A stretch of 64,000 nt of DNA from Caloramator sp. E03. Lineage in GTDB: Bacteria > Bacillota > Clostridia > Clostridiales > Caloramatoraceae. The DNA lies in assembly GCF_006016075.1 (NCBI RefSeq), contig NZ_CP040093.1, forward strand, positions 2,459,501-2,523,500. Direction: 5' to 3'. A model generated the notes under the pieces. The model saw nothing but the letters and a program-made list of their open reading frames with translations. It searched no databases and was not told where the DNA came from. Shown here in pieces: positions 15,324-40,629 of the stretch; position 1 is the first letter of the stretch, and every line of letters begins with the position of its first letter. Made by a program: the position numbers and the translations under genes.

Positions 15324-16289
15324 ATGGAGAAAAGGTGTATTATAAATAATAATGATTATGTTTTGGCACTTGGAGGGGCGAATGTTGATATACAGGGCGT
15401 CCCTAAGGATAAGCTTATATTTAGGGATTCTAACATAGGAACTTTGAATATTTCTTTAGGAGGCGTTGCAAGAAATATAGCTGAGAACCTCTCAAGGCTT
15501 GGAATTTTTGTGAAGCTTTTAACCGCCATAGGGGATGATTTATACGGCAATAAAATATTAGAGCACTGCAAAGATTTAAAAATTGACGTAAGCGATGTTA
15601 TAGTTTCAAAAAAGCATAGCACATCAACTTACTTATCGATTCTTGATGAAAAAAAGGATATGGCAGTAGCTCTCTCCTGTATGGATGTATGTGATGAGAT
15701 AACCATTGATTATATTAAATCTAAAGAAAATATTTTAAAAGATTCAAAGATATGCATTGCAGATACAAACCTTTCAAGGGAAGTTTTAGAATACATAACT
15801 CAGATTAAGGATGTAAATATTTTTTTAGATACGGTTTCAACCTCAAAGGCTAAAAGAGTTAAGGATTTTATAGGAAGGTTTCACACAATTAAACCTAATA
15901 GATATGAGGCACAGGTTTTAACAGGGATAAATGTTGATAGTATAGATAATGCTAAAAGAGCCTGTGAATATCTTTTAAATAAAGGAGTAAAAAGGGTGTT
16001 TCTGAGCCTTGGGGAAGAGGGAGTCATAAGTGCAGGGGAAGAATTTGACATGTTTAAAATTAATATGTTAAAGATTAAGGTTGTAAATGCAACAGGAGCA
16101 GGGGATGCCTTTTTAGCAGGCCTTGCTTTTGGGGATCTAAAGGGAATGAGCATTATAGAGTGCGCAAAGTTTGCTATGTCCTGTGCAGCAATAGCCCTGT
16201 CATCTGAAAATACTATTTCTGATGAAATGTCAGTTGAAAATGTTAATAAAAAAATGAAGGAGATGGAATTATGCTTGAAAAATATTTAG
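15324..16289 (+). CDS. psuK: PfkB-family pseudouridine kinase
   Basis: A 321-residue ribokinase-like sugar kinase. The PfkB signatures are GGANVDI near the N-terminus, the SLGGVARNIAENLSRLG substrate loop, and NATGAGDAFLAGLAFG with the catalytic aspartate near the C-terminus. Overlap with psuG (19 nt) identifies the substrate as pseudouridine, phosphorylated to pseudouridine 5'-phosphate in the cytoplasm. A TAAGGAG site overlaps the helicase stop, so all three genes may be one transcript. Confidence 0.93.
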   Translation: MEKRCIINNNDYVLALGGANVDIQGVPKDKLIFRDSNIGTLNISLGGVARNIAENLSRLGIFVKLLTAIGDDLYGNKILEHCKDLKIDVSDVIVSKKHSTSTYLSILDEKKDMAVALSCMDVCDEITIDYIKSKENILKDSKICIADTNLSREVLEYITQIKDVNIFLDTVSTSKAKRVKDFIGRFHTIKPNRYEAQVLTGINVDSIDNAKRACEYLLNKGVKRVFLSLGEEGVISAGEEFDMFKINMLKIKVVNATGAGDAFLAGLAFGDLKGMSIIECAKFAMSCAAIALSSENTISDEMSVENVNKKMKEMELCLKNI

Positions 16290-17179
16290 TTATATCCGAT
16301 GAGGTAAAAGAAGCGATAGATAATAAAAATCCCGTTGTTGCCCTTGAATCAACTATTATTTCCCATGGAATGCCATACCCTCAAAATGTAGAAACTGCGC
16401 TTTCCGTTGAGAAAATAGTTAGAGAAAATGGTGCTGTTCCTGCAACTATTGCAATAATAGGAGGAAAACTTAAAGCAGGACTTAGCCGTGATGAGATTGA
16501 ATATCTTGGGAAAAAGGGAAGAGAAATTATAAAGGTGAGCAGGAGGGACATACCCTATATAGTTTCAAAGGGATTAGATGGAGCTACAACTGTGGCATCA
16601 ACGATGATAATAGCAGCTCTATCGGGAATAAAGATTTTTGCAACTGGGGGAATAGGGGGCGTTCACAGAGGGGCACAGGAGACCTTTGACATATCAGCAG
16701 ACCTTCAGGAACTTGCAAATACAAATGTTGCTGTTGTTTGTGCAGGAGCAAAATCTATACTTGATTTAGGATTAACTCTCGAATACCTTGAAACCTTAGG
16801 CGTTCCTGTTGTAGGATATAAAACCGATGAGCTTCCTGCATTTTATACAAGAAGAAGCGGATTTAAGGTTGACTATAGATTGGATACGCCAAAGGAAATA
16901 GCAAATATGCTAAGGGTAAAATGGGAGCTTAACTTAAAGGGCGGAGTAATAATAGCAAACCCCATACCAAAGGAGTATGAAATGGACTATGATACAATAA
17001 ATAAAGCCATTGAAGATGCACTAGAAGAAGCGAAGTATAAGGGAATAAAGGGCAAGGAGACAACTCCCTTCCTGCTTTCTAAGGTAAAGGATATAACAGG
17101 AGGCAAGAGCCTTGAATCCAATATTCAGCTTGTATTTAACAACGCAAAGCTATCAGCTCAGATTGCTGTGAATATGTAA
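16271..17179 (+). CDS. psuG: Pseudouridine-5'-phosphate glycosidase
   Basis: The 302-residue protein splits the C-glycosidic bond of pseudouridine 5'-phosphate to uracil and ribose 5-phosphate, completing salvage begun by PsuK. Conserved stretches include ALESTIISHGMPYPQN, the GGIGGVHRGA segment and a catalytic lysine region near VSKGLDGATT. Length is normal. The ATG at 16271 lies 8 nt after AAGGAG and overlaps the psuK end. A strong terminator follows. Confidence 0.97.
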   Translation: MLEKYLVISDEVKEAIDNKNPVVALESTIISHGMPYPQNVETALSVEKIVRENGAVPATIAIIGGKLKAGLSRDEIEYLGKKGREIIKVSRRDIPYIVSKGLDGATTVASTMIIAALSGIKIFATGGIGGVHRGAQETFDISADLQELANTNVAVVCAGAKSILDLGLTLEYLETLGVPVVGYKTDELPAFYTRRSGFKVDYRLDTPKEIANMLRVKWELNLKGGVIIANPIPKEYEMDYDTINKAIEDALEEAKYKGIKGKETTPFLLSKVKDITGGKSLESNIQLVFNNAKLSAQIAVNM

Positions 17180-17223: not shown

Positions 17224-17262
17224 GTGAGTCCGGCATGGTGACAGCTCGCCGGACAAGCCTGG
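17224..17262 (+). other. Possible short 5' remnant of a group II intron
   Basis: GTGAGTCCGGCATGGTGACA starts directly after the T-run of the psuG terminator and resembles the 5' end of the clearer intron remnant at 23326 (GTG, then CCGGCATGG, then ACAGC). Insertion behind terminators is typical of class C group II introns. Only about 38 nt remain, so this is tentative. Confidence 0.4.
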
Positions 17263-17539
17263 GGACAGTTACTTATTTTATGAATTTGATATTTAATTTT
17301 TTACCGTAACAAGCAGAAGGACGGTTACTTATTTCATACACAATATCTGCAAAATTAGGGGGGCCATCCATAAAATATTATGTTTATTTAATATATTAAG
17401 TAACCGTCCCTCCTGTTACTGCAACTGCTAAGTAAGAACATGTCTCCCAAGCTTGTATTAACACTACAATAATAAATAAATAAGTAACCGTCCCCCTGCA
17501 CTGCACCATGCCAAGGGACGGATTACACTAACAGCATAT
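17262..17539. repeat. REP cluster between psuG and the MFS-aldolase gene
   Basis: A variant core lies at 17262-17277 (+). The inverted pair 17319-17333 and 17395-17410 makes a 92-bp unit with the common spacer. A further minus core lies at 17479-17494, and a degenerate GGGACGGATTACAC at 17514-17527. Confidence 0.85.
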
Positions 17540-19429
17540 TCATTTTGTCAGTGACTTTTTAGAATATTTTTTTAAGAAGTATTGATGCATAATATAACTT
17601 TCAAATTTGCTAAGGGGGACTCCTTTTTCAAGTAATTTTGTCTCAATGAGGGTTTTGCATGATTTTTCAAGTATTTCGCATGCTGTGAAAGCTTCATTAA
17701 GGCTTCTTCCTATACATACAGCCCCGTGATTTGCAAGAAGAACTCCATTTCGCCCTTTTAATGCCTTTATTGTATTTGTTATCAATTTTTTAGTTCCTGG
17801 TATTGCATAATCAGCAACCCTTATTGAAGGACCTATTATCTGTGCCATATCATCAAGAAGAGGAGGGACTTGAAGCCTTGCAGCTGCAACTGTGCAGGCA
17901 CTCTGTGAATGAGTATGAATTACTGCATTTATCTCCCTTCTTGTTTTATATATTTTAGCGTGAAGACCGGTCTCACCTGAAGGTTTAAGCTTACCCTCAT
18001 AGCTTAAATCATTTATATTTACTATTACCATATCTTCAGGTTTTAAAGATTTATATGGTATTCCGCTTGGAGTTATGAGCATGTAATCATTATTTATCCT
18101 GAGGCTTAAATTTCCCCATGTTCCACTTACAAGTCCAGATTCTAAAAGTCTTAAACCTCCATCACACAGTTTCTGCCTTAGTTTTATAATAACATCATCA
18201 TCAAAATTGTCCTTTGCTTCAGTAAGAATTAATGGTGATTCCTCAAATTTTCTTGCATAGAGAAAAGTTAAAAAGATAAGAACTGTAAAGAAAAGAAGGG
18301 AATATACCATGTTTCCTCCTGCAAGACTGCCTAAATAATCCATTAAAAATATAAAAATTATCCCAGATATTTGTCCCATAAGCATTAAAATACCAAAGGA
18401 AGTTCCTTCAGGTATTGGATATGCAATTTCAGCTCCGTATTGAAATGCGATTGGCCCAATACCCATTATAAAAAAGCCAAATGCTGAACAGCAAATTAAT
18501 ATAACAGCATAACTCTTTGAAAAGGTGAGTACTGCAAAGGGAATTACAGCAAAAAGTATAGGCCATACTAATAAAGGTTTTCTTTTTTTAATCCTGTCTG
18601 ATACCATAGGAAGAATAACAGCGCCTACAAGACCAACTATTATTAGTATTCCTCCTATTGTTCCTGCCTGTACAGAGCTAATTCCCTTTGGACGAAGCAT
18701 CTCTTCAATCCATGTCATAACAGCGTTAAAAATTCCCATAAGGACAAACATACATACCATGAGCCTTATATAATTATTATTGCTTAATAAAGACTTTGTT
18801 TTTGAAAAAGTAAATTCTTCTTTAATATTATTTGTTTCATCTACTAAGATTTCAGGCTTTTCCTTTGAAAATATTATAAAAATGATAGCGCAGAATACGG
18901 AGGCATAACCATATTGCATAAGAAGCTTTGGAAGACCTAAAGATAAATATAGTCGAGGTGATAAAAGCATTGCTGCAATCATGCCAATATACCCTGCCAT
19001 AGTTGCTATGCCTGATGCAGTAGCTCTCTCATATAGAGGAAACCAATTCGCAGCAATCTTTGTTATTGAGTTTACAAGAAAGGGCTGCCCAAGAGCTATG
19101 GCTGTCTGGCATAATGAAACTACAATATAGTTATCTGCAAAGATACCTCTTAGCATTCCAAAAACAGCAGTAAGAAGGGCACCTATGAGCATAGAAATTT
19201 TAAATCCTTTTTTATCAATTAGATATGATACAGGCAGTGCTGCAACTATATAGACTATCATATAAATCATTGAAAGAAATGCTATATAAATAGGAGAAAC
19301 ATTATAGAATTTTATTGCCTGACTTGTTATAGGTGCAAAAGTAAGCCAGAAAACATTTGTCATTGCAAGTATTGGAAGTGTACAAAAAAGCACAACCCAC
19401 CTATATGGATATACTTTATATTCTTTCAA
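17540..19429 (-). CDS. Fusion of an MFS transporter and a class II (fuculose-phosphate-type) aldolase
   Basis: One uninterrupted 629-residue frame. Residues 1-400 form a 12-helix major facilitator (start motif YPYRWVVLFCTLPILAM; LIDKKGFK in the 2-3 loop) resembling FLVCR-like carriers. After a short acidic linker, residues 415-629 are a complete AraD/FucA-type aldolase: GNLSLR, TPSGIPYKSL, SGETGLHAKIY, the zinc-ligand pair HTHS, and NHGAV. These enzymes cleave a ketose 1-phosphate to dihydroxyacetone phosphate plus an aldehyde. No internal start fits the aldolase, so the fusion looks real. TTG start behind AAGGGGGG. The FGGY kinase upstream probably supplies the substrate. The sugar is unknown. 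Confidence 0.88.
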   Translation of the reverse strand: MKEYKVYPYRWVVLFCTLPILAMTNVFWLTFAPITSQAIKFYNVSPIYIAFLSMIYMIVYIVAALPVSYLIDKKGFKISMLIGALLTAVFGMLRGIFADNYIVVSLCQTAIALGQPFLVNSITKIAANWFPLYERATASGIATMAGYIGMIAAMLLSPRLYLSLGLPKLLMQYGYASVFCAIIFIIFSKEKPEILVDETNNIKEEFTFSKTKSLLSNNNYIRLMVCMFVLMGIFNAVMTWIEEMLRPKGISSVQAGTIGGILIIVGLVGAVILPMVSDRIKKRKPLLVWPILFAVIPFAVLTFSKSYAVILICCSAFGFFIMGIGPIAFQYGAEIAYPIPEGTSFGILMLMGQISGIIFIFLMDYLGSLAGGNMVYSLLFFTVLIFLTFLYARKFEESPLILTEAKDNFDDDVIIKLRQKLCDGGLRLLESGLVSGTWGNLSLRINNDYMLITPSGIPYKSLKPEDMVIVNINDLSYEGKLKPSGETGLHAKIYKTRREINAVIHTHSQSACTVAAARLQVPPLLDDMAQIIGPSIRVADYAIPGTKKLITNTIKALKGRNGVLLANHGAVCIGRSLNEAFTACEILEKSCKTLIETKLLEKGVPLSKFESYIMHQYFLKKYSKKSLTK

Positions 19430-19457: not shown

Positions 19458-19490
19458 CCATTCTCCGGTGCCAGGCACCGGAGAATGGGT
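19458..19490. repeat. Module C palindrome
   Basis: A near-perfect hairpin CATTCTCCGGTGCC/GGCACCGGAGAATG lies between the kinase stop and the transporter-aldolase start. It is a copy of the C module found at 1.78, 27.06, 31.8, 41.07 and 47.12 kb. It could weaken downstream expression. Confidence 0.8.
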
Positions 19491-19494
19491 ACCG

Positions 19495-21024
19495 TTAAAA
19501 TCGTTTTGAATTTATTTCTTTATAAGCTTTCTCAAGGGAATAATATATTTTTTTGTATGAAATAAACAATTCATCGTATATCTTATAGTTTTCTTCCTGA
19601 GGTATATAGGTATGTTCTATATGAAGAAGCTTCTTAACGTCAGAAAAATCCTTATAAATTCCAAGACCAACCAGTGCACACATTGCAGCACCGAGGGCAC
19701 CGCTCATTTTAGGATTGTTTGAAACCTCTATTCGTTTTTTAGTAACATCGGATATTATCTGCATCCACTGTTTATCAAGCGCTCCTCCGCCTATAATTTT
19801 AATCACATCAAAATCAAAGCCGAAATCCTTTTTATAGTTTTCTAAAATCCATCTAAGGTTATAGGCAACACCTTCGTAAACTGATCGCATTAGATGTTCT
19901 CTTGTATGCTCATGAGTAATATTAAATAGGGTTGCTCTAACAGTTGTTGAGCTTACCGGGCATCTTTCTCCCCTCATCCAGGGGGTACATATAAGATAAT
20001 CTGATCCTGGAGGAACCTTTTTAACATGCTCATCCATTAATACATATATATCCTTAATTGAAGGGTCAGCTTGTTCGTGCCTGTAAAATTCATCCGCTAT
20101 CCATTTTATACATGAGCCGGCAGATTCAGTAATACCAACAACAATATTCATATCTGGATCTGCACTTTTTAGGCATACTGCAGAGTTTTTAAATTTTAGT
20201 ACCTTTTTTGTAGAAACACATACCCATGCGGAGGTTCCAAGATAAATATGAGCTTCATTATCTAAGACAGCACCGGAGCCAACGGCTGCACTTTGAGTAT
20301 CATCGCATCCCCCAAAAACTGGAGTACCCTCTAAAAGCCCCATCTCTTCTGCTGCCTTTTTTGTAAGCCCTCCAACATTATCAATAGAACGCACAAGGGG
20401 AGGGAGCTTTGAGGTGCTTATACCGCTTATTTTAAAGAAAATCCTCATCCAGTCTTTTTTATGCAAGTCAAAACCATAGGAACAGGCTCCGGAAAGTTCA
20501 GCAGTTTTTGCCCCGCTTGCCATAAACCTCAGATATCCATTAACGTCTAAAAAATATTCCGTCTTATTATAAATATCCGGTTCATTTTCCTTAATCCACA
20601 GAAGCTTTGGAATAACATCCTTTCCCATTAGTTCAATTCCAACAATTGATTTGAATACCCCGCTTCCCAAAAATCTTTTCATTATCTTTTTAGCCTGAAC
20701 TTCTGCTCTTCCATCTACCCACGTTATGTTTGGCCGAAGGACATTTCCATCTTTATCAATAGGTATTATACCCATTGCCTGTGTCGTAAAAACTATACCG
20801 ATGATATCCTTTGGCGAAACCGAGGATTTTTTAATAACATCTCTTGTACATTTTGTAACAGCTCTCCAGTAGTCCTCAGGATTTTGTTCAACCCAATTAG
20901 GATGAGGAACGCTTAGAGGATAATCACAGGATTCATGACAGCATATTCTGCCATCAGTATCAACTAATACTGCTTTGCTGCAGCTTGTTCCAACATCATG
21001 GGCAATTATATATTTGGCACCCAC
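19495..21024 (-). CDS. FGGY-family carbohydrate kinase
   Basis: A 509-residue kinase of the xylulokinase/fuculokinase/glycerol kinase family. The N-terminal ATPase fold begins IIAHDVGTSCSKAVLVD, WVDGRAEVQAKKI lies in the substrate region, and GGCDDTQSAAVGSG and IIGGGALDKQWMQI form the C-terminal ATP-binding lobe. It should phosphorylate a ketose or polyol at C1 or C5, giving the substrate for the neighbouring aldolase domain. GTG start with AGGGGTGG upstream. The gene is 65 nt upstream of the fusion gene in the same direction. The exact sugar cannot be assigned. Confidence 0.92.
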   Translation of the reverse strand: MGAKYIIAHDVGTSCSKAVLVDTDGRICCHESCDYPLSVPHPNWVEQNPEDYWRAVTKCTRDVIKKSSVSPKDIIGIVFTTQAMGIIPIDKDGNVLRPNITWVDGRAEVQAKKIMKRFLGSGVFKSIVGIELMGKDVIPKLLWIKENEPDIYNKTEYFLDVNGYLRFMASGAKTAELSGACSYGFDLHKKDWMRIFFKISGISTSKLPPLVRSIDNVGGLTKKAAEEMGLLEGTPVFGGCDDTQSAAVGSGAVLDNEAHIYLGTSAWVCVSTKKVLKFKNSAVCLKSADPDMNIVVGITESAGSCIKWIADEFYRHEQADPSIKDIYVLMDEHVKKVPPGSDYLICTPWMRGERCPVSSTTVRATLFNITHEHTREHLMRSVYEGVAYNLRWILENYKKDFGFDFDVIKIIGGGALDKQWMQIISDVTKKRIEVSNNPKMSGALGAAMCALVGLGIYKDFSDVKKLLHIEHTYIPQEENYKIYDELFISYKKIYYSLEKAYKEINSKRF

Positions 21025-21059
21025 AAAACCACCCCTAATTCATAATAAATTTACAAAAT

Positions 21060-21177
21060 ATAGAATTAATTCTATTATATACTATTTGATTTTGAAATAA
21101 AATATAATATTAAAATATTGTATAAAATTATACCATAGTACAAAATTATTGACTTGGAAACTATTAACATATATAAT
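21060..21177 (+). promoter_or_regulatory. Divergent control region of the kinase and TetR genes
   Basis: A perfect 16-bp palindrome ATAGAATTAATTCTAT (21060-21075) lies 36 bp upstream of the kinase start and is a candidate TetR operator. For the TetR gene, TTGACT (21149-21154) and TATAAT (21172-21177) are separated by 17 bp. Confidence 0.6.
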
Positions 21178-21214
21178 GGTTTCAAAGAGAGGAAATTGGA
21201 GGTATGTTACACCA

Positions 21215-21808
21215 ATGGAGATTTCAAGAAGAGAAAGAAAGAAAATAAAAACAAAATCAGATATATTAAGGGCTGCAAGGCATTTGTTCGAAGAAAAAGG
21301 ATACGATGATGTTTCAATTGAAGATATAACAGAAAGGAGTGATGTTTCAAAGGGTACATTTTTTAATTACTTTAACAGCAAGGAAGGCCTTTTAAAAGCA
21401 ATAGCAGAGGAGGAAGTAGATGATATACAGGAACTTTACGAGAGAGAAGGGCAAAACTTTAAATCCTGCAGGGATAGAATAAAGCTGATTATGAAAAGGC
21501 TGTTAGATGATTCAATACCATATATGCACTTAACTGGAAGGGTTGTATTTTCTACAATTATTAACTCTAATGAAGATGTCTCGCCTTTCTATGCAATAAA
21601 TGAAATGATAGACTCACTTGTACAGGAGGGGCAGATGTGCGGTGAATTCTCTAAGGAATATCCGTCTAAATATATTGTTACGGCAATATTAGGAGCATAT
21701 TATGGACTTATTTTCACATGGTTTGAACACAAAAAAGAGACAATAGGATGGAGCGAGCTTGAATGTATTTTGGATGCTGTCTTTAAAGGCTTTAATAATA
21801 TTATATAA
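21215..21808 (+). CDS. TetR-family transcriptional regulator
   Basis: The 197-residue protein has the TetR DNA-binding domain at its N-terminus (ILRAARHLFEEKGYDDVSIE, then SDVSKGTFFNYFNSKEGLL) and a helical ligand-binding domain after it. I use ATG 21215 because an upstream in-frame start would lie within the promoter; GGAGGT is 11 nt upstream. It is divergent from the kinase/fusion operon and 29 nt from the aminotransferase, so it probably represses one or both. The ligand is unknown. Confidence 0.93.
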   Translation: MEISRRERKKIKTKSDILRAARHLFEEKGYDDVSIEDITERSDVSKGTFFNYFNSKEGLLKAIAEEEVDDIQELYEREGQNFKSCRDRIKLIMKRLLDDSIPYMHLTGRVVFSTIINSNEDVSPFYAINEMIDSLVQEGQMCGEFSKEYPSKYIVTAILGAYYGLIFTWFEHKKETIGWSELECILDAVFKGFNNII

Positions 21809-21837
21809 AAATTTTAAATTTGAGGGGGGTGTATGTT

Positions 21838-23286
21838 ATGGAGAAGGAAGGATATGCAATATCAAAATGGCATAATACAAAAGAAATTTATGAAAGGATA
21901 GATAATCTTTTAAAGCAGCCTGTAAGGGGAATAAAAAAAGATGCAATGGATAGATATATTGAATATTTTAATACGAAATGTTCAAAGTCAAAGGAGATAA
22001 TAACTGAAGCAAAAAAATATATTCCAGGAGGGGTACAGCATAATCTTGCCTTTAACTATCCTTTTCCCATAGTTATAACTAAAGCTGAGGGAGCTTATAT
22101 GTATGATGCTGACGGCAACAGGTATATAGACTTTCTTCAGGCTGGAGGGCCTACTATTTTAGGAAGCAATTATAAGCCTGTCCAAGAGAAGGTAATAGAG
22201 CTTATAAAGGAATGCGGGCCTGTAACGGGACTTTTCAGCGAATATGAGCTTAAAATTGCAAAGCTTATAAACAAGTATATGCCTTCCGTTGAAATGTTCC
22301 GTATGCTTGGAAGCGGCACGGAGAGTGTGATGGCAGCAATTAGGATAGCAAGGCTTGCAACTGGAAAGAAAAAGGTTATAAAGCTTGGAGGGGCTTATCA
22401 CGGATGGAGCGACCAGATGGTTTACGGCCTTCATGTTCCAGGAACAAGAGGGTTTGAAGCTCATGGTATTCCAAGTTCATGTTTTAAACATACTCAGGAG
22501 GTATTCCCAAATAATATTGAACAGCTTGAAAGAAAGCTAAGGTTTAATAAATTAAGGGGAGGAACTGCTGCAGTTATAGTTGAGCCCGTTGGCCCAGAGA
22601 GCGGAACAAGGCCTATTGATAAGGATTATAATAAAAACGTCAGGGAACTTTGCGACAAATATGGTGCCCTTCTTATATTTGATGAGGTTGTAACAGGATT
22701 CAGGATTGGCCTTGGTGGAGCACAGGGATACTTTGATGTTAAACCTGATTTGACTGTATTTGGGAAGATAGTAGCAGGAGGATATCCTGGAGCTGGAGGA
22801 GTAGGAGGACGAAGAGAACTTATTGAATGCCTTGCAGCAGGAATTCAGGGGGACAAAAAAAGGGCATATGTTGGAGGAACTCTCGCAGCAAACCCATTAA
22901 GTGCTGCAGCGGGGTATTTTACATTACTTGAAATAGAAAAAACGAATGCATGTGAAGTTGCTGGACGTGCTGGGGACAGACTAACAAAGGGGCTTTCAGA
23001 GCTTATTGAAAAATATAAACTTCCCTATGTTGCATATAATCAAGGTTCAATATGTCATCTTGAAACAACAGGAACGATGTTTGTAAAGCTTTTGAGCTTA
23101 GGCAGTATGAATGAGATTAAAAAACGAAAGAAGATGATGGAGGAGATGGGTGCTGCCTACATGGCGGAGGGTATTATAACTCTTGCAGGAAACAGGATGT
23201 ACACAAGCCTTGCAGATACAGATGATGTTATCGATGAGGCTTTAAATAGATTTGAAAACGTGTTTAAAAATGTAGACGGAGTTTAA
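21838..23286 (+). CDS. Class III PLP-dependent aminotransferase
   Basis: A 482-residue enzyme of the glutamate-1-semialdehyde aminomutase/omega-transaminase group. It shows YMYDADGNRYIDFLQAGG, the GSGTESVMAAIRIAR cofactor-phosphate motif, GAYHGWSDQ, FDEVVTGFRIG with the aspartate that contacts the PLP nitrogen, and the lysine-bearing TVFGKIVAGGYP. It lacks a HemL context and has an N-terminal extension of about 50 residues. Start ATG 21838 with GAGGGGGGTG 7 nt upstream. Co-transcription with TetR suggests a role in the same pathway, perhaps amination of an aldehyde or ketose. Substrate unknown. Confidence 0.9.
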   Translation: MEKEGYAISKWHNTKEIYERIDNLLKQPVRGIKKDAMDRYIEYFNTKCSKSKEIITEAKKYIPGGVQHNLAFNYPFPIVITKAEGAYMYDADGNRYIDFLQAGGPTILGSNYKPVQEKVIELIKECGPVTGLFSEYELKIAKLINKYMPSVEMFRMLGSGTESVMAAIRIARLATGKKKVIKLGGAYHGWSDQMVYGLHVPGTRGFEAHGIPSSCFKHTQEVFPNNIEQLERKLRFNKLRGGTAAVIVEPVGPESGTRPIDKDYNKNVRELCDKYGALLIFDEVVTGFRIGLGGAQGYFDVKPDLTVFGKIVAGGYPGAGGVGGRRELIECLAAGIQGDKKRAYVGGTLAANPLSAAAGYFTLLEIEKTNACEVAGRAGDRLTKGLSELIEKYKLPYVAYNQGSICHLETTGTMFVKLLSLGSMNEIKKRKKMMEEMGAAYMAEGIITLAGNRMYTSLADTDDVIDEALNRFENVFKNVDGV

Positions 23287-39720: not shown

Positions 39721-40629
39721 CTATGCTCCTATTGATAGTATTTCCTCTGCTATTACTTTATATCTTTCTTCTTTAATAAGCTCTCTTCCTATGGAGCATA
39801 GCCTCGAAACATTGGCTTGCCCCGTATTTCCAAGTATCCTGCATATATCGGCACACTTTAAATCGCAAAACTTTCTCAGTACAAAGCAAAGCACAGCCTT
39901 TGCTTCTTTTGCATCCTTTGCTCTTTTTATCTTTAGCATAAGCTTATCTATATTAAACTTTCTTATAATTATATCTATTATTCTATCAGGGGATAGATCC
40001 CTTACAAGTACAGTTCTCATACTCCTATATTCTGTAGGCTCATTTTTAAATTCTTCCTTTTGGGCATCTACTAAGCTTTTTACTTTAAATATAAGATCTC
40101 TGTACATTGCCCTTGCGGCAGCGTCTTTTAAGCTAAAGATAGATAAAATAAAGTCTTTATCGATAAGTTCAAACTCATCAACCCTTTGGGCTAAAAATAT
40201 ACCTAAGGATGAAAAAGGGTAATCTTGTGGATTTGTTTTATATTCCTTGATATCTGTTGCATTAAAGTGAACATAAGCTGTTAAGGCAAGGAGATACCTA
40301 TCGTCTTTAACTATTTTGCTTTTAAATCTGTCTTGAAAAAGGTGGCCATGTCTTTCATATCTTTTGTTAAAATACATAGCATATTTATAGTTTATAAAAT
40401 GCATAATCTTTGAGATATCGGCTCCATTAGCATCAATAATAAAATGGGCGTGATTATCCATAAGGCAGTAGGAGTAAACTCTAAATTCGAATTGATCTTG
40501 AGCTTTTTTCATAAAATCTAAATATTTTGCTTTATCATTTTCGTCGATATAAAGATTTACCTCAGAAATACTTTTTACCATGATGTGATAAATTGAATCG
40601 AAGGATTTTTCACGTGCCAATCTTGGCAT
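39721..40629 (-). CDS. REP-associated tyrosine transposase (RAYT), copy 2
   Basis: A 302-residue paralogue of copy 1. The HUH motif NHAHF is in the usual form, and the tyrosine segment HFINYKYAMYFNKR and HGHLFQDRFKSK are kept. The extra C-terminal domain ends with TGQANVSRLCSIGRE, a helix-turn-helix-like stretch. Unlike true insertion sequences it has no accessory TnpB. It probably acts on the GGGACGGTTACTTATT family. The leader hairpin over the ribosome binding site is conserved. Confidence 0.93.
   Translation of the reverse strand: MPRLAREKSFDSIYHIMVKSISEVNLYIDENDKAKYLDFMKKAQDQFEFRVYSYCLMDNHAHFIIDANGADISKIMHFINYKYAMYFNKRYERHGHLFQDRFKSKIVKDDRYLLALTAYVHFNATDIKEYKTNPQDYPFSSLGIFLAQRVDEFELIDKDFILSIFSLKDAAARAMYRDLIFKVKSLVDAQKEEFKNEPTEYRSMRTVLVRDLSPDRIIDIIIRKFNIDKLMLKIKRAKDAKEAKAVLCFVLRKFCDLKCADICRILGNTGQANVSRLCSIGRELIKEERYKVIAEEILSIGA

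Follow-up and report, generated by a model that had tools for sequence, protein, structure and literature searches.

FucA, the L-fuculose-phosphate aldolase, is a tetramer with its active sites between subunits. It acts after an FGGY kinase, and it belongs to the same fold family (PDB 6btd, 4c24, 1fua) as the aldolase described here. The closest solved structures to the carrier described here, by sequence as well as by fold, are those of the choline and ethanolamine transporters FLVCR1 and FLVCR2 (SLC49). The FLVCRs are uniporters, and in FLVCR1 the residues W125 and Y349 grip the amine or ammonium group through cation-pi interactions and two glutamines touch the hydroxyl group (PMC11168923).

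In Caloramator sp. E03, homologs of these two kinds of protein are encoded by a single gene. The gene is part of a two-way cluster in the window, by which we mean the whole 64,000-nucleotide stretch of DNA that was analysed, with the following features:

17540-19429, minus strand: MFS carrier-class II aldolase fusion, 629 aa, TTG start, also in C. quimbayensis
18245-19429, minus strand: MFS carrier half, FLVCR/SLC49-like, 12 transmembrane helices, codons 1-395
18179-18244, minus strand: linker, codons 396-417, 73% identity to C. quimbayensis
17540-18178, minus strand: class II aldolase half, codons 418-629 plus stop, with zinc ligands H505, H507 and H568 and catalytic E486
19459-19487: 29-bp palindrome CATTCTCCGGTGCC(A/T)GGCACCGGAGAATG, between kinase and fusion
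19495-21024, minus strand: FGGY carbohydrate kinase, 509 aa, directly upstream of the fusion and probably co-transcribed with it in one operon
21025-21214: control region between the divergent genes, well conserved in C. quimbayensis
21215-21808, plus strand: TetR-type regulator, start placed at the ATG common to C. quimbayensis
21820-23286, plus strand: class III (HemL-like) PLP aminotransferase, the conserved partner of kinase and aldolase

The fused gene is an uninterrupted frame of 629 codons running from 19429 to 17540, and its TTG start is closely preceded by a strong Shine-Dalgarno-like AAGGGGGG that is kept in C. quimbayensis. The Pfam profile MFS_1 matched residues 15-359 (profile positions 3-346 of 347, E 1.5e-35) and Aldolase_II matched residues 419-594 (positions 1-182 of 183, E 7e-50), a near-full coverage which shows that neither domain is noticeably truncated. 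Between codons 376 and 450 the frame has no ATG, GTG or TTG; the first in-frame start is ATG450, within the aldolase domain. These results agree with the first-pass annotation, which had described a full 12-helix MFS carrier and a full class II aldolase in one frame with no internal start; the junction that it had placed at 18180-18250 corresponds to the variable linker. A separate internal start for the aldolase was rejected, as the Shine-Dalgarno-like stretch in the linker is followed by out-of-frame ATGs only; the scan covered ATG, GTG and TTG, and a rare ATT or ATA start is still formally possible. The AlphaFold2 model of the fusion has 12 membrane helices, the last ending at residue 392. 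Its carrier half is usable and its aldolase half, built on a shallow alignment of few rows, is poor, so the fold of the latter was assigned by sequence homology.

All PDB sequence matches of the carrier half were to FLVCR1/2 (phmmer E 2.5e-34), and FLVCR1/2 also occupied ranks 1-12 in Foldseek, with E values down to 9.7e-18 at 25-26% identity. W28, Q115, F234 and Q353 of the carrier align with W125, Q214, F348 and Q471 of FLVCR1. W28, Q115 and Q353 were kept in every examined homolog covering them, and F234 likewise in the examined bacterial homologs covering that position. The retention of the tryptophan and the two glutamines suggests a small amine-alcohol as substrate, which is the natural reading of an FLVCR-type site. 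Unlike FLVCR1 and FLVCR2, however, this carrier is bacterial, has a catalytic C-terminal domain attached, and lacks the tyrosine of the cation-pi cage, the equivalent of Tyr349 being Asn235 in seven out of seven sequences. Choline is for this reason not secure as the substrate, and since the FLVCRs are uniporters, import by the carrier is not proven either.

The best matches of the aldolase half were fuculose-phosphate aldolases. It shares with FucA the zinc ligands, the catalytic glutamate and the phosphate-binding segments; H505, H507 and H568 aligned with the FucA ligands and were invariant in ten sequences, and E486 was invariant in the aldolase alignment. The ligands are the equivalents of His92, His94 and His155 in E. 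coli FucA numbering, and E486 corresponds to Glu73, a position at which AraD epimerases have Asp. Unlike FucA, the Caloramator aldolase is covalently joined to a carrier, and it scored 152.6 bits against a cut-off of 264 with the NCBIfam L-fuculose-phosphate aldolase equivalog. The score with TIGR01086 was 103.5 bits (cut-off 400.25), and the aldolase half was well under the curated cut-offs for any named enzyme. The large distance to the FucA cut-off indicates that its sugar is probably not fuculose.

The same fusion was found in C. quimbayensis (G002, NZ_FUYH01000028.1), 92% identical over the full length. The Nei-Gojobori dN/dS between the two was 0.20 for the carrier and 0.21 for the aldolase, and about 0.9 for the 22-codon linker, the last value resting on nine changes only. 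A third Caloramator genome (G001, 86% complete) has a separate aldolase only, which is 40% identical. The first-pass annotation had held that separate genes in all relatives would refute its reading; C. quimbayensis shares the fusion.

A likely view of the unfused state is given by Chengkuizengella marina (Bacilli). All five genes of the cluster recur in this organism with the divergent layout kept, with aminotransferase and TetR regulator facing kinase, carrier and aldolase, but here the carrier (415 aa) and the aldolase (217 aa) are separate, adjacent genes with a gap of 26 bp, and the aldolase gene has its own ribosome-binding site. The identity to Caloramator is 74% for the aminotransferase, 48% for TetR, 68% for the kinase, 53% for the carrier and 65% for the aldolase. 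That fused genes can arise from neighbours in an operon is well known, and the separate adjacent genes of C. marina indicate that the Caloramator gene is such a fusion, so far seen only in this genus. The linker holds AAAGGA in strain E03 and AAAGGAG in C. quimbayensis, which may be a remnant of the ribosome-binding site of the aldolase, although six bases could be due to chance. Carrier homologs in three other genomes (G078, G537, G007) are unfused, and those of G078 and G537 stand without an aldolase or aminotransferase nearby; a homolog from Actinomycetes (L033) runs past the end of its contig and may be either fused or unfused. The stops within the aldolase matches of three relatives (L008, L011, L015) reflect translation upstream of separate aldolase genes, and these aldolases adjoin other enzyme genes, methionine-salvage-like by eye, and not this carrier.

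The coupling of a carrier to an aldolase had seemed puzzling in the first-pass annotation, because an uptake carrier would be expected to meet a kinase first. This puzzle largely disappears with the FGGY kinase encoded directly upstream, which would act before the aldolase in the step order normal for an uptake pathway. The palindrome between the two genes is kept in C. quimbayensis with a changed centre, and its 23-bp core has 13 copies genome-wide, allowing up to two mismatches. It is predicted to form a hairpin without a T run, and hence is not a canonical terminator. A search for operators in the divergent region yielded AT-rich repeats only, and scanning for promoters and terminators gave no more than chance would.

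Other features of the window were also noted. Two neighbouring genes just beside the cluster (15324-17179) encode a PfkB kinase, closest to pseudouridine kinase, and a PsuG-like (Indigoidine_A) protein, which are likely a pseudouridine salvage pair. The sequence GGGACGGTTACTT has 37 copies in the 64 kb when one mismatch is allowed, where none would be expected; the copies span 1558-47305 (for example 17262-17494), often stand as inverted pairs in intergenic gaps and look like a REP-type repeat family. A gene on the minus strand (39721-40629) resembles a REP-associated transposase.

The most conserved partner in the cluster is the class III aminotransferase, with 61-68% identical copies in the sampled Bacillota and also on plasmids from two species, Butyrivibrio fibrisolvens and Burkholderia ambifaria. 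It occurs together with a class II aldolase and an FGGY kinase in 17 loci (the window, L031, L032, L039, L040, L048, L049, L050, L052, L069, L071-L076 and L078; L032 is the C. marina cluster). In a tree with XylB and other FGGY kinases, the nine sampled module kinases formed one group with a support of 89/99, just under the threshold of 95. The loci from Bacillota and from the plasmids of B. fibrisolvens and B. ambifaria resemble the Caloramator cluster in their aminotransferase (61-66% identical), their related kinase and their class II aldolase. They differ in that two aldolase domains in tandem are found in many of them and an aldehyde dehydrogenase near several, and no FLVCR-like carrier adjoins, which holds for the majority of module loci beyond Caloramator and Chengkuizengella. 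Given the lack of a carrier beside most module loci, and the carriers that stand alone in G078 and G537, the substrate of the carrier need not be the only feedstock of the pathway. Four distant hosts have an aldehyde dehydrogenase gene close to the module: G595 (L050, 2756-4135), G812 (L052, 4185-5603), Butyrivibrio (L039, 18652-20181) and Burkholderia (L040, 14981-16423). The G595 protein is most similar to ALDH3 and fatty aldehyde dehydrogenases, and the other three were placed in this class by eye.

The tandem class II aldolase domains of many module loci are encoded by one gene of about 410 aa (e.g. L048 3485-4750, L049 9190-10428 and L069 5011-6246). By eye, the second half appears to have lost residues of the zinc site, suggesting a pair of one catalytic and one structural domain.

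The best explanation, to which we give a probability of roughly 55%, is a functional fusion of two operon neighbours, an FLVCR-like amine importer and a tethered aldolase. The carrier would most likely import an amine-bearing polyol or amino-alcohol, the divergently encoded aminotransferase would deaminate it to a ketose, the kinase would phosphorylate the ketose, and the aldolase would cleave the ketose-1-phosphate to dihydroxyacetone phosphate (DHAP) and an aldehyde. This is the simplest chemistry that would use all four components, the order of the steps being inferred. The FucA-type zinc aldolase would be attached where helix 12 ends on the cytoplasmic side, and the fusion would set a 1:1 ratio of carrier to aldolase and keep the last enzyme at the site of entry. 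The tetrameric assembly of FucA may be a point against a tethered aldolase, as the tethered copy would need to assemble likewise. Deoxy sugars, on which the first-pass annotation had proposed growth tests, are one possible substrate, but the conserved aminotransferase suggests an amino-alcohol instead.

A more specific speculation, which we regard as improbable in its full form, is that bacteria use the module as a so far undescribed pathway for sphingoid-type 2-amino-1,3,4-triols. Phytosphingosine is a common natural compound of this kind. Deamination at C2, phosphorylation at C1 and retro-aldol cleavage would yield DHAP and a fatty aldehyde, to be oxidised by the aldehyde dehydrogenases found near four of the loci, which are of the fatty-aldehyde type where tested. 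As a guess, a 2-amino-1,3,4-triol would fit every step and the dehydrogenases would fit a fatty aldehyde; amino-alditols would fit nearly as well.

Among the alternatives, the strongest is that the fusion is a neutral by-product, in which the stop between adjacent genes was lost and both halves serve one pathway, but independently of each other. It differs from the functional fusion solely in denying a benefit of tethering. The adjacency of the two genes in Chengkuizengella, only 26 bp apart, the short and fast-evolving linker and the possible leftover ribosome-binding site are all consistent with such an origin. However, the fusion is retained in both Caloramator species having the cluster and an internal start has been restored in neither, although retention alone shows no benefit. 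We consider a neutral by-product unlikely, yet worth keeping in mind.

It is less likely still that the C-terminal half acts as an MtnB-like dehydratase or AraD-like epimerase, within the same superfamily, in a path resembling methionine salvage. MtnB and AraD do belong to the same superfamily as the aldolase half, and in a related cluster (L068 8011-13180, G834:C35) a RuBisCO-like protein most similar to MtnW is encoded between the aminotransferase (68% identical) and the kinase (51%); a HAD phosphatase is present, and there is no class II aldolase between kinase and aminotransferase. This cluster is possibly a variant route with a RuBisCO-like enzyme, so that non-aldolase chemistry is possible in the module, whose intermediate is probably a ketose phosphate with a fate that may vary. 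Against a dehydratase or epimerase in Caloramator stand the best matches to fuculose-phosphate aldolases and the retained catalytic glutamate and FucA zinc ligands. The MtnB profile TIGR03328 gave 91.0 bits (cut-off 137.05), and its best stretch covered residues 427-516, the first half of the domain only.

Of the two roles envisaged in the first-pass annotation, holding the pathway at the membrane is plausible in a genuine fusion, and export of the aldehyde fared worse. In such a scheme the carrier would clear the toxic aldehyde, or its reduced product, from the enzyme that forms it. The direct attachment of the carrier to this enzyme would suit export, as would the fact that the Caloramator cluster has no class 3 aldehyde dehydrogenase next to it, with weak matches only in the genome. 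Yet the FLVCR-type pocket keeps the cation-binding tryptophan and the two glutamines, no other uptake system is encoded within the two-way cluster, and the carrier is missing beside most relatives of the module, all of which makes export very unlikely.

A sequencing or assembly error is effectively refuted. Nothing in its favour was found, and the junction has no frame-breaking indel. The same frame is present at 92% identity in C. quimbayensis, which was sequenced independently, and the low dN/dS indicates purifying selection on both halves, which excludes a missed stop or frameshift.

Searches that used either the full-length protein or its carrier half as query against sampled relatives, the class, the phylum and two further neighbourhoods revealed no MFS-aldolase fusion outside Caloramator. 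No plasmid record covered 80% of the query, and no fusion was found among phages. The pattern scan of genome contigs spanned close relatives only, and unrelated MFS-aldolase fusions could be missed by it. In the open-access literature, nothing relevant was found on MFS-aldolase fusions or on a comparable phytosphingosine pathway in bacteria. On the genomes compared here, the combination of an MFS carrier and a FucA-type aldolase is a new pairing of known families, present in two Caloramator genomes, rare and of ordinary origin.

The separate-gene version, at 53-65% identity, is found in an intact homologous cluster, and the effect of tethering is therefore directly testable by splitting or joining the genes. 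The fusion furthermore points to a conserved, yet uncharacterised, pathway across Clostridia, Bacilli, other Bacillota and a Burkholderia plasmid. It also points to bacterial relatives of the FLVCRs, whose substrate would inform our understanding of the human transporters.
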